A DNA stretch of 36,408 nt from the NCBI GenBank assembly GCA_029786595.1, contig JAFLXO010000008.1:1-36408 (forward strand), in the 5' to 3' direction. A model generated the notes under the pieces. It had not been told where the DNA came from. It was given only the letters and a program-made list of their open reading frames with translations, and made no database searches. Of the stretch, positions 13,996 to 17,960 are shown one piece after another. This stretch comes from Nitrososphaerota archaeon (GTDB lineage Archaea; Thermoproteota; Nitrososphaeria; Conexivisphaerales; UBA164). The translations under genes were made by a program, and so were the position numbers. The stretch's first letter is position 1. Every line of letters starts with the position of its first letter.

Positions 13996-14337
13996 TTATT
14001 TCGGCTCTTTCCTCTGATCTTGAAATGCAAATCCCCACAAAGCCTTCCCATCCTCCTCTTTTAGTTGTTTCCATATGGGCCTGAGCTTACTGCCTATGGC
14101 TGGGGATTCCGTAATTATCTGCCCAAAAGCTCTTCCCCCGTTTGGAAATTCGACTATACCTAATCTTAGCGGTTTTTCGCTCACCCCAGTAGGGGTGACC
14201 CAGAGTTCCGTATATGTTAAAAGGATACATTCTTCCCCCATATCAACTGTTATAAACTCCCTAGATGTACACTCGGGACATATAGCCTTTTTAATACTAT
14301 ATACGCGACCGCACTTTGCGCATTTATAACCTTCCAT
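13996..14337 (-). CDS. DUF35 OB-fold/zinc-ribbon acyl-CoA-associated protein
   Basis: Small partner protein of archaeal thiolases (113 aa). In the methanogen thiolase/HMG-CoA synthase complex a DUF35 protein bridges the two enzymes and channels acetoacetyl-CoA. The N-terminal zinc ribbon is 'CAKCGRVYSIKKAICPEC'. An OB-fold follows, with 'ILLTYTELWVTPTGVSEKP' and 'LRLGIVEFPNGGRAFGQI'. The stop of the thiolase gene lies 2 bp upstream of its start, so both come from one mRNA. No HMG-CoA synthase gene is next to it here. Confidence 0.85.
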   Translation of the reverse strand: MEGYKCAKCGRVYSIKKAICPECTSREFITVDMGEECILLTYTELWVTPTGVSEKPLRLGIVEFPNGGRAFGQIITESPAIGSKLRPIWKQLKEEDGKALWGFAFQDQRKEPK

Positions 14338-14339
14338 CT

Positions 14340-15515
14340 TTAATCACCTCTTTTCAGGATCAATGATACGGCATTTGATCCAAATCCCCCAAGATTTACA
14401 GAAAATCCATATGTTGCACCGGGAACTTGCCGGCCTCTGGCTTCTCCTCTAAGCTGCCAGACAAGTTCAACTACTTGTGAAAGGCCTGTCGCACCCAGTG
14501 GGTGGCCTCTGGCCTTAAGGCCGCCTGAAGTATTAATGGGTAGCTTACCGCCTATTTCGGTCTGCCCTTCTCTAACCATTTTATGCGCGGTTCCTTTTTC
14601 AAAAAATCCTGCATCTTCGCTTTCTACCAGTTCAAGAATTGTAAAGGCATCATGAAGTTCTGCAACATCTATCTGATCTGGGGAGATGCCAGACATTTTA
14701 AAGGCCTGTTTTGATGCTTCCTTTACTGCATTGATATCAGTTGGTACAGGTCTCTCATGCAACGCCAATGAATCAGTGGCTTGACCGAACCCCTCAATAG
14801 TCACAGGAAGATCCGTATATTTCTTGGCTACTTCAAGCTCGGCTAGCACTACCGCCGCTCCTCCATCGGAAATTGGCGATATATCAAACCTTCTTAACGG
14901 GTCGGCAACCATAGGGTTTATTTTCTCCATTTCATTTGAATGAAGAAGGTTATCCACTGTCACCATCTTTTGCAAATGAGCATATGGATTATTTAAGGCA
15001 TTTTTATGATTTTTAACAGCAATCATTGCAAGATCCTCAGAGGTCACACCGTACTGCTTCATATATAGCCTAGCAAGCATAGCCCCTAAAGAAGGAAGCG
15101 TGGCTCCACTCATTCTTTCTACCGGATGAAGCATATAGGAAATATACTCCGATATGACCTCGGTCGCCATATGTGTCATTTTTTCGGCTCCAGCCACAAG
15201 CACCAAATCAAAAAGGCCGGACTTGATAGCTATGAATGCATCCTTAATTGCTGAAGCGCCTGCGGCTGGACCATTTTCAATTCTATCTGCTCCTATCTTT
15301 ACTCCAAGCTCGTCCGCAAGCATTGTCCCTAATGAAACCTGTTTTGTAAGTTCGCCCCCCAGCATGTTGGAAATATACAAAAGATCCAAGTCTTTTTCAC
15401 TTAATTTGGAACTTTCTATAGCGGTAAGCGACGGTTCGAGTAATAGTTCATCAAGCCCCTGTGTGAGCTTTCCAAACTTGGTCATCGTAGCGCCTAGGAT
15501 AGCCACTTTCCTCAT
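14340..15515 (-). CDS. Thiolase-family protein (SCP2/archaeal type) lacking the nucleophilic Cys
   Basis: 391-aa protein of the archaeal SCP2-like thiolase family. Active members condense two acetyl-CoA for the mevalonate pathway, or cleave beta-ketoacyl-CoA. The N-terminal active-site segment is normally E-x-x-C-A-S-G, but here it reads 'IENGPAAGASAIKDAF', with Pro at position 83 where the Cys should be. The codon reads CCA on the minus strand. Other landmarks are kept: 'LHDAFTILELVESEDAGFF', 'NTSGGLKARGHPLGATG' with the catalytic His, and 'NLGGFGSNAVSLIL' at the C-terminus. It sits 2 bp before the DUF35 partner. It may be a non-thiolytic acyl-CoA-binding or structural member, or may use other chemistry. 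Confidence 0.85.
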   Translation of the reverse strand: MRKVAILGATMTKFGKLTQGLDELLLEPSLTAIESSKLSEKDLDLLYISNMLGGELTKQVSLGTMLADELGVKIGADRIENGPAAGASAIKDAFIAIKSGLFDLVLVAGAEKMTHMATEVISEYISYMLHPVERMSGATLPSLGAMLARLYMKQYGVTSEDLAMIAVKNHKNALNNPYAHLQKMVTVDNLLHSNEMEKINPMVADPLRRFDISPISDGGAAVVLAELEVAKKYTDLPVTIEGFGQATDSLALHERPVPTDINAVKEASKQAFKMSGISPDQIDVAELHDAFTILELVESEDAGFFEKGTAHKMVREGQTEIGGKLPINTSGGLKARGHPLGATGLSQVVELVWQLRGEARGRQVPGATYGFSVNLGGFGSNAVSLILKRGD

Positions 15516-16787: not shown

Positions 16788-17042
16788 TCATGTACCTAAA
16801 CTCTTGATATATTCTAATATGGTCCCATCAATATCATCCGCAAAAGGGGTATCAAGAACGGATATCAATGCTGCTTTGGTCCGCTCAAACTTACCCCGGT
16901 CCTTCTCAGCTCCATAAATAAGCTTGGCAAGAGCTATAAGAGCTTTCTTCTTCTCTGTACTCAGGCCTATATCGTTAAGTACAGTGGGCTCCTTGTAACC
17001 CCTGTATATTTCATCCAACAGCTCCCTTATCTGCTCATCCAA
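16788..17042 (-). CDS. Small acidic helical protein of unknown function in RecA-like unit
   Basis: 84-aa protein, not recognised. It is predicted largely helical, rich in Asp/Glu/Lys, with no Cys, signal peptide or membrane segment. 'RELLDEIYRGYKEPTVLNDIGLS' opens it and 'DDIDGTILEYIKSLGT' closes it. Its start overlaps the end of the RecA-like ATPase gene by 8 bp, so translation is probably coupled. The tight coupling suggests a binding partner or regulator of the ATPase; that is inference from context. Confidence 0.7.
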   Translation of the reverse strand: MDEQIRELLDEIYRGYKEPTVLNDIGLSTEKKKALIALAKLIYGAEKDRGKFERTKAALISVLDTPFADDIDGTILEYIKSLGT

Positions 17043-17628
17043 TCAATTTCACTCCATCCCTTCCGATCGTATAATTTATCCTTTTTCCGGTTTCTGATAT
17101 GACCAGCCTCCCAACAGCCCCAAATCGCTCCATCCTTATCCTTGTCCATATATAGGGGTCCGTAAGGGCGCTGCCAAGAGGATGCCCCATTCCAATCCCT
17201 GAAAGGCCATCGGTCATGATTACGGTTCCACCGTTTGATGCAAATATTGAAAGGTGCCTTGCGCTAAGGCCCAACATGTTCAAGAACGAGCGAGAATCAT
17301 AGAACATCTGAGAAAATCCATCTATGAAGACAGACTTATAATTAGCCTTCTTTGCTACTGATAACGTAAACTCATAGGCCATTTGTCCATCATATGGTCG
17401 TTCAACATAAAGATTCCTTAACAGAGATCGATCAGCCAACAGTTCCAGAAGTCTTTCCGGTCTGAACTTTCTCGCGCCATCTACGACCACCTGTTCATTT
17501 TCGCCACGGGTTAACGTTTCACTTATGAGCGTCAGGAGCAGCTGTGTTTTTCCAGCTCCCTCAGGTCCGAAGATCTCGATTAGCTTACTCTGCCCGGCAA
17601 AATCCATGAACCTTTCGAGGGCAGACAA
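17035..17628 (-). CDS. RadB-like RecA-superfamily ATPase
   Basis: Minimal RecA-fold ATPase, 197 aa, consisting of the core only. Walker A is 'IEIFGPEGAGKTQLLLTL' (residues about 18-35). Walker B is 'YKSVFIDGFSQMFYD' (about 97-111). 'GGTVIMTDGLSGIGMGHPLG' takes the place of the loop after sensor strand 4, and 'WTRIRMERFG' resembles the end strands of RadA/RadB. The N-terminal helix-hairpin-helix domain of RadA and the usual 'G-C-x-x-L-D' entry of KaiC/RadB are missing. The nearest known type is RadB, a recombination accessory ATPase, but no DNA-binding region is obvious. It is sandwiched between two small genes (2-bp gap and 8-bp overlap). Confidence 0.8.
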   Translation of the reverse strand: MSALERFMDFAGQSKLIEIFGPEGAGKTQLLLTLISETLTRGENEQVVVDGARKFRPERLLELLADRSLLRNLYVERPYDGQMAYEFTLSVAKKANYKSVFIDGFSQMFYDSRSFLNMLGLSARHLSIFASNGGTVIMTDGLSGIGMGHPLGSALTDPYIWTRIRMERFGAVGRLVISETGKRINYTIGRDGVKLIG

Positions 17629-17630
17629 CG

Positions 17631-17960
17631 TTATGATTCTACCGTCGACCTTGCAAATTTGATTGAGCCTGTTTCTAACGTTAGCTCATAAATATCATTG
17701 ACTTCGAAATTTATCCCTAGCTGTATGTATTCGTCATCAGTTAAGAACAGGACTATCTTGGGAGGTTGAACATCCTTGATCATCTGTAGGATACCCAGGG
17801 ACTGGAACTGATACATCACGTTGTGAAGTACGTCGTCCATAGCCCCTTGTGTATTCGCAATACCAGCCCTCCTGAATTCCGTAAGCTCTACCTGTCTTCC
17901 AGGGATACCTGTGGTAGGATTGTTCATACTGCTTATCCTGTTCACTTTAACCAACAGCAT
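17631..17960 (-). CDS. Conserved-looking small protein of unknown function, first gene of RecA-like unit
   Basis: 109 aa, function not recognised. It starts with a basic beta-like stretch, 'LVKVNRISSMNNPTTGIPGRQVEL', and continues with the helical 'GAMDDVLHNVMYQFQSLGILQ' and a strand-rich end, 'PPKIVLFLTDDEYIQLGINFEVNDIYEL'. No membrane segment or metal site is seen. It lies 2 bp upstream of the RadB-like ATPase and is clearly co-transcribed. The start may be at the codon before 'LLVKVNR' or at a later Met. It superficially resembles arcadin-type small proteins, but I cannot confirm that. Confidence 0.7.
   Translation of the reverse strand: MLLVKVNRISSMNNPTTGIPGRQVELTEFRRAGIANTQGAMDDVLHNVMYQFQSLGILQMIKDVQPPKIVLFLTDDEYIQLGINFEVNDIYELTLETGSIKFARSTVES

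Follow-up and report, generated by a model that had tools for sequence, protein, structure and literature searches.

The window analysed here, a 36,408-nucleotide stretch of DNA from a Nitrososphaerota archaeon, contains on its minus strand an open reading frame (14340..15515) for a thiolase-fold protein of 391 amino acids, which an NCBIfam model names 'thiolase domain-containing protein'. The protein matched PF00108 (Thiolase_N, 95 bits), PF02803 (Thiolase_C) and PF22691 (Thiolase_C_1, 161 bits) above the cut-offs. An AlphaFold2 model built from 21 clade sequences (pLDDT 82, pTM 0.89) had 6esq, 7yvy and 4yzo as its best fold matches in the PDB (TM-scores by query length of 0.80-0.89), and by fold the protein belongs to the thiolase superfamily. 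A DUF35-type gene (13996..14337, minus strand, 113 amino acids) starts 2 nucleotides past the thiolase stop codon, so the coupling of the two genes, claimed earlier from the sequence alone, was upheld. Its product carries a zinc ribbon (C-x2-C-x10-C-x2-C), matches the BbsA model with an E-value of 2e-10 and matches zf-ChsH2 slightly below the cut-off (E 2e-4). The adjacent zinc-ribbon protein typical of DUF35-associated thiolase-fold complexes is therefore encoded here as a predicted partner. A carbon-nitrogen hydrolase of the nitrilase superfamily (PF00795; 13012..13815) is encoded on the plus strand, opposite to the pair. Elsewhere in the window (16788-17960), genes for an arcadin-1 homologue (PF18653), a small RecA-like ATPase and an 84-amino-acid ORF come one after the other, apparently in a single operon.

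The sequence-only reading had reported that the nucleophilic cysteine of this thiolase is replaced by proline. The alignment confirmed it: within the segment ENGPAAG (residues 80-86; 15258..15278, minus strand), Pro83 (CCA, 15267-15269) falls on the nucleophilic cysteine of 7yvy and 6esq, both of which read EAACASG. Thus, the position held in catalytic thiolases by the nucleophilic cysteine of the CxS/CASG loop is occupied by proline. The second, acid/base cysteine, which catalytic thiolases carry in HDCF or in the CxG loop, is also absent, the corresponding segments being HDAF (residues 288-291; 14643..14654, minus strand) and NLGGFG (residues 374-379; 14379..14396, minus strand), the latter with a Phe378 that is invariant among the proline-type proteins. 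The HDxF/NEAF and GHP residues of oxyanion hole 1 are in place, since His288 of HDAF and His338 of GHP (residues 337-339; 14499..14507, minus strand) are both retained and are invariant in the proline clade. The HDAF and GHP motifs had been described as intact; both are present, but the alanine of HDAF takes the place of the acid/base cysteine carried by most close Cys-type relatives. Of 25 non-redundant relatives with the Cys, 17 had HDCF and 7 had HDAF, and HDAF also occurs in the Cys-type 7yvy and in the mevalonate thiolase of the same genome. Relative to the HDCF proteins, both catalytic cysteines are gone. The window protein holds no cysteine whatever, nor do the other members of its family f1 (7 sequences in all), and the alignment revealed no conserved cysteine elsewhere in the active site. 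This supports the earlier statement that the usual acyl-enzyme cannot form, and the label 'thiolase' given by family models misstates what such a protein can do.

Relatives were gathered with contig search patterns from which the active-site segment was omitted and were thus not selected for proline; the pattern search of genome contigs and 100 relatives together formed the sample. Proline occupied the nucleophile position in all 49 clade members long enough to align, it was present in two other assemblies of the window's genus (L003, L004), and all four proline codons (CCA, CCG, CCT and CCC) were used across the clade. The hosts are Nitrososphaerota (family f1, which is the window's own group, and Caldarchaeum), Hadarchaeota, Methanoperedens, Promethearchaeota (Lokiarchaeota/Helarchaeota), Anaerolineae and other Chloroflexota, and one Zixibacterium, which amounts to at least five archaeal and two bacterial phyla. 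In a tree built without alignment columns 80-86, that is, without the active-site segment, the proline proteins formed a single group (support 96/93; 94% of bootstrap trees). A Cys-less clade, the existence of which had been proposed as a check, is therefore evident from both alignment and tree. Its nearest sister consists of haloarchaeal Ser-type proteins (94/82), with Sulfolobus ST0096 (4YZO) and Micrarchaeal Ser-type proteins nearby; the deeper grouping of Cys-less proteins was weak (56/88). A separate Cys-less branch with Thr or Ser (ETATSSG, ETASSSG and ESGSSSG in Acidobacteria, Leptospiraceae and Thermoplasmata; L050, L055 and L044) lies apart from the proline clade with support of 99/99. 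In two genomes (L169 and L170; G012 and G015) from families of the order to which the window's genome belongs, thiolase-like proteins were seen that carry His in place of the Cys (GHASG and AHASG) and GFP in place of GHP.

The proline-type gene is under strong purifying selection, as dN/dS was 0.014-0.097 in the six clade pairs for which the synonymous distance was finite; the top two of these distances (1.3 and 3.5) were near saturation. A sequencing error, a pseudogene or a substitute nucleophile was ruled out, with a negligible residual probability, by the presence of proline in 49 of 49 proteins from independent assemblies, by dN/dS far below 1 and by the lack of any cysteine. The group is a real, conserved, cross-domain family that has hitherto been named thiolase. 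No report of a proline-type thiolase was found in a search of the open-access literature.

Residues were compared between 13 non-redundant proline proteins and 25 Cys proteins. D68, N81, G82, P83, L294, S299, F305, W353, F378 and N381 are invariant in the proline clade and rare in the Cys proteins, and E286, H288, D289, N328 and H338 are kept, with E286, H288, N328 and H338 conserved in every sequence. Among other Cys-less relatives, N81 was found in 6 of 12 and an aromatic residue at position 378 in 8 of 12; judging by the alignment, these two features tend to track with cysteine loss. Conservation of the histidines, Glu286 and Asn328 together with newly fixed invariants is the pattern expected of an active enzyme, and the proline-type protein is probably catalytic. 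The same observation bears on the suggestion that the protein is a dead thiolase acting as a non-catalytic, acyl-CoA-binding scaffold for DUF35 and a further enzyme. A scaffolding role is documented for DUF35-thiolase assemblies (PMC6996347), and in an Archaeoglobales HMG-CoA synthase-thiolase-DUF35 operon (L043, 2973-5501) an apparently dead thiolase with Asp at the nucleophile position (ENADASG) has been retained in the complex. However, active-site residues should erode in a dead scaffold, and here the catalytic His pair, Glu286, Asn328 and the active-site loops are invariant over at least seven phyla, new active-site residues have become fixed, and no HMG-CoA synthase adjoins the window gene or other members of the clade. 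A purely structural role is therefore considered unlikely.

The second check that had been proposed, a Cys-bearing thiolase with HMG-CoA synthase in the same genome, was answered by a complete HMG-CoA synthase-thiolase-DUF35 operon (G000:C25; L148, 570-3138), the thiolase of which reads EAACGSG. Because this ordinary operon is present elsewhere in the genome, the possibility that the proline-type protein is a misread mevalonate thiolase was ruled out. Other f1 genomes also carry separate Cys-type thiolases (L159, L161-L163, L165). An adjacent DUF35 gene was found at 21 of 22 non-Asgard proline loci versus 3 of 27 Asgard loci; the view that DUF35 always accompanies the proline-type gene is thus wrong, as it holds outside Asgard and fails at most Lokiarchaeal loci.

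A few thiolase-fold proteins (Ltp2, Sal, TbSLP and TLP1) are already known to have lost the cysteine, but proline is special in that it also takes a backbone NH away from oxyanion hole 2. The two holes are described for human T2 thiolase, where His385 and a water held on Asn353 form oxyanion hole 1 and the main-chain nitrogens of Cys126 and Gly415 form oxyanion hole 2 (PMC6790690); PhlC has the same arrangement of hole 2, with Cys88 and Gly385 (PMC6392133). Since proline has no backbone NH, hole 2 loses a donor, and an acyl-Cys cannot form. By analogy, oxyanion hole 1 (the GHP histidine and the HDAF-held water), which stabilizes acyl-CoA enolates, should survive the replacement. With hole 2 and the acyl-Cys lost and the hole 1 residues kept, the active site points to non-covalent enolate chemistry: the fold must run on the enolate half-reaction alone, and the family must work differently from known thiolases. 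Fixation of proline over at least seven phyla alongside both catalytic histidines constitutes a clean natural experiment on the evolution of new chemistry in thiolases.

The gene neighbourhood was then considered. The proline-type gene is clustered with a recurring set of genes in Hadarchaeota (L111-L113), Chloroflexota (L114, L115) and a Nitrososphaeria relative (G039, L196), each cluster holding members of the set, not necessarily all, and some of them in places only. The set comprises AllF/FdrA, AllG (PF06545), AllH (PF11392), a PF04199 amidohydrolase of one subtype and a GNAT-fold protein, c6; acyl-CoA ligase (ACS) or CoA-transferase, uridine phosphorylase (in L111, TIGR01718 at 301.9 against a cut-off of 280.3), a cytosine-deaminase-like amidohydrolase and a BmpA-type nucleoside transporter; and Mo-hydroxylase, carbamate kinase and methylmalonyl-CoA mutase/epimerase. 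Some of the names, such as carbamate kinase, CoA-transferase and mutase, come from by-eye reading of the sequences. AllG was detected in 15 of 19 proline-thiolase genomes of the pattern-search set versus 1 of 14 controls. In the relatives set, it was detected in 18 of 41 genomes overall and in all nine with a proline-thiolase, one of which (G039) has an incomplete protein that was counted by 51% identity over its N-terminal part, with the active-site residue not covered. In neither set are the genomes phylogenetically independent. AllG was absent from three of the four proline-thiolase Asgard genomes examined and from Methanoperedens, and several genomes with AllG and the cyclase have no proline-thiolase.

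The window's genome encodes AllF/AllG (C110), AllH (C33), the PF04199 subtype (C24), seven Mo-hydroxylase large subunits and five PF01048 proteins; AllFGH and the cyclase are dispersed on other contigs and do not lie beside the thiolase-DUF35 pair. The C24 protein is 56-71% identical to the Hadarchaeal, f1, G039 and f2 copies and 27% identical to the other PF04199 protein of its own genome. In Chloroflexota (L124, L127), too, a carbon-nitrogen hydrolase gene occurs, placed between AllF and AllG. The one in the window is closer (36%) to a protein encoded near Cys-type thiolases of Nitrosopumilales, and because similar neighbours flank those thiolases, its membership in the proline-thiolase system is uncertain. 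Genes for AllFGH and PF04199, carbamate kinase, Mo-hydroxylase and nucleoside phosphorylase were observed across L111-L113, L193-L196 and G000:C110/C33/C24, which suggests that Hadarchaeota, Nitrososphaeria and Chloroflexota catabolise nucleobases by an undescribed, energy-conserving route.

The c6 protein gave no Pfam, NCBIfam or PDB sequence match; its predicted fold is GNAT, with PA3270, Rv0998 and PatZ as the best fold matches. Copies were located at L006 (2222-2812), L021 (3312-3998), L196 (833-1507 and 9290-10018) and L192 (9549-10286), and the family has two subtypes, one encoded beside the proline-thiolase and one beside MmdA-type carboxyltransferase or Na+-pump genes. The occurrence of c6, with its predicted CoA-binding fold, next to the proline-thiolase in Hadarchaeota, Chloroflexota, Zixibacteria and G039 would suit a Cys-independent acyl transfer or hydrolysis, in which CoA, water or the GNAT-fold neighbour attacks acyl-CoA directly (thiolysis or thioesterase action with no acyl-enzyme), and the invariant Asn81 might stand in for the lost hydrogen-bond donor. 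However, proline should cripple oxyanion hole 2, which is required for the tetrahedral intermediate at the acyl carbon, and the search of the window's genome yielded subtype c6b only and no c6a, so its copy was rejected as the thiolase-linked subtype. Direct acyl transfer is accordingly regarded as improbable.

The earlier list of functions (acyl-CoA binding, scaffolding or a Cys-free reaction) was open-ended, and the present evidence narrows it to putative Cys-free enolate chemistry in a catabolic setting. The best reading, put forward tentatively, is an enzyme that works through acyl-CoA enolates without a cysteine; its most likely role is that of a (methyl)malonyl-CoA decarboxylase in the breakdown of ureides or pyrimidines. 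The protein would be a catalytic thiolase fold with DUF35 as its partner; thiolase chemistry would have been given up and one half-reaction kept, in which an acyl-CoA enolate is formed and protonated with no covalent intermediate. Malonyl-CoA and/or methylmalonyl-CoA would be decarboxylated to acetyl- or propionyl-CoA, as in Cys-less KSQ-type ketosynthases, and DUF35, as the structural partner, would complete the site for CoA in the manner of the 6ESQ complex.

The pathway is assigned from gene neighbourhood through a series of inferences. AllFGH converts oxalurate to oxamate and carbamoyl phosphate (PMC11326118), and its presence in nitrifiers has been interpreted as oxalurate degradation (PMC12625717). 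In the proposed pathway, a Mo-hydroxylase would act first, followed by ring opening by the PF04199 amidohydrolase. AllFGH would then move the carbamoyl group to phosphate, ureidomalonate (the barbiturate-derived analogue of oxalurate) giving malonamate and carbamoyl phosphate, from which carbamate kinase would form ATP. The malonamate- or malonate-type acid would be activated by the acyl-CoA ligase or CoA-transferase, so that deamidation and CoA activation would give malonyl-CoA from uracil or methylmalonyl-CoA from thymine, and the proline-thiolase would remove CO2. Purine ureides are an alternative source.

Related clusters (L193-L196, L041) have methylmalonyl-CoA mutase, MmdA-type, PrpD-like and PrpB-like genes in their vicinity, which is consistent with a (methyl)malonyl-CoA pathway. 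Against the decarboxylase reading count the dispersed genes of the window's genome, the Asgard and Methanoperedens genomes lacking AllG, the AllG/cyclase genomes lacking a proline-thiolase and the many Lokiarchaeal copies, a majority, lacking DUF35; in addition, the decarboxylation could be carried out by the MmdA/OadB-type enzymes encoded near related clusters in L193, L194 and L196, and the decarboxylase precedent TbSLP is very slow. That the proline-type gene is linked to AllFGH, PF04199 and genes for nucleoside uptake hints at an unrecognised route of nucleobase degradation in Hadarchaeota, Nitrososphaeria and Chloroflexota, and a search of the open-access literature found no report of a barbiturate/AllFGH pathway in archaea. 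The fullest form of the proposal, that the family forms a new, Cys-free class of acyl-CoA lyase/decarboxylase and completes an undescribed energy-conserving oxidative degradation of pyrimidines (uracil/thymine) in archaea and Chloroflexota, is doubtful.

Among characterised systems, 6ESQ (the acetoacetyl-CoA thiolase of Methanothermococcus thermolithotrophicus in its thiolase/HMGCS/DUF35 complex) and 7YVY (Pyrococcus furiosus) resemble the window protein in fold, length and the GHP and HDxF histidines, and 6ESQ shares the DUF35 partner; both have the nucleophilic cysteine, and 6ESQ is accompanied by HMG-CoA synthase, whereas the window protein has proline, no cysteine and no such neighbour. 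The benzoylsuccinyl-CoA thiolase BbsAB (7PXP) is a thiolase-DUF35 heteromer with HDAF and GHP, like the window pair, but it retains the nucleophilic cysteine (QSACSAG). ST0096 of Sulfolobus tokodaii (4YZO) and the haloarchaeal and Micrarchaeal Ser-type proteins are Cys-less, with N-x-[S/P] replacing the Cys segment and an aromatic residue at the CxG-loop position, as in the proline clade; they differ in having Ser, a possible nucleophile, and ST0096 and the Micrarchaeal proteins have HDM(A/S) instead of HDAF.

The steroid retro-aldolases Ltp2-ChsH2(DUF35) (6OK1) and Sal-Shy(DUF35) (9MYR) are characterised Cys-less, DUF35-bound thiolase-fold enzymes (PMC12329534) repurposed for acyl-CoA C-C cleavage. 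The window protein shares with them the absence of cysteine and the DUF35 partner, its model matches 9myr and 6ok1, and the enolate half-reaction is common to aldolases, so that an aldolase or retro-aldolase converting a 3-hydroxyacyl-CoA to an aldehyde or ketone and acyl-CoA may be envisaged. However, the catalytic Tyr of Ltp2 and Sal (YDHF/YDCY; PMC12329534) sits where the proline clade has the invariant His of HDAF, which leaves this assignment unsupported by motif. The model is also far closer to the acetoacetyl-CoA thiolases 6esq and 7yvy (TM 0.83-0.89, 38-39% identity) than to Ltp2, Sal and TbSLP (TM 0.78-0.82, 23-27% identity; 26-27% for Ltp2 and Sal), and no MaoC-type hydratase was recognised in the inspected flanks. 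An activity of this kind is thus unlikely.

Nearer to the decarboxylase reading is TbSLP, which has no nucleophilic cysteine and decarboxylates malonyl-CoA slowly (kcat 0.005 per s; PMC12329534); mycobacterial TLP1, with Gly for Cys, has no thiolase activity (PMC3406046). Both TbSLP (5AB6/5AB7) and TLP1 are thiolase-like and lack the nucleophilic cysteine, as does the proline clade, but TLP1 has lost all fingerprints (YSCF, GGL and NGG) and TbSLP has YDCF, whereas the clade keeps HDAF and GHP. The KSQ domains of polyketide synthases have a ketosynthase fold in which Cys is replaced by Gln and both histidines are kept, and they decarboxylate malonyl thioesters. They are ACP-dependent, have Gln and not Pro, and belong to a different subfamily. 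The proline clade shows the same combination of a replaced cysteine and two retained catalytic histidines, and its decarboxylase activity is predicted.
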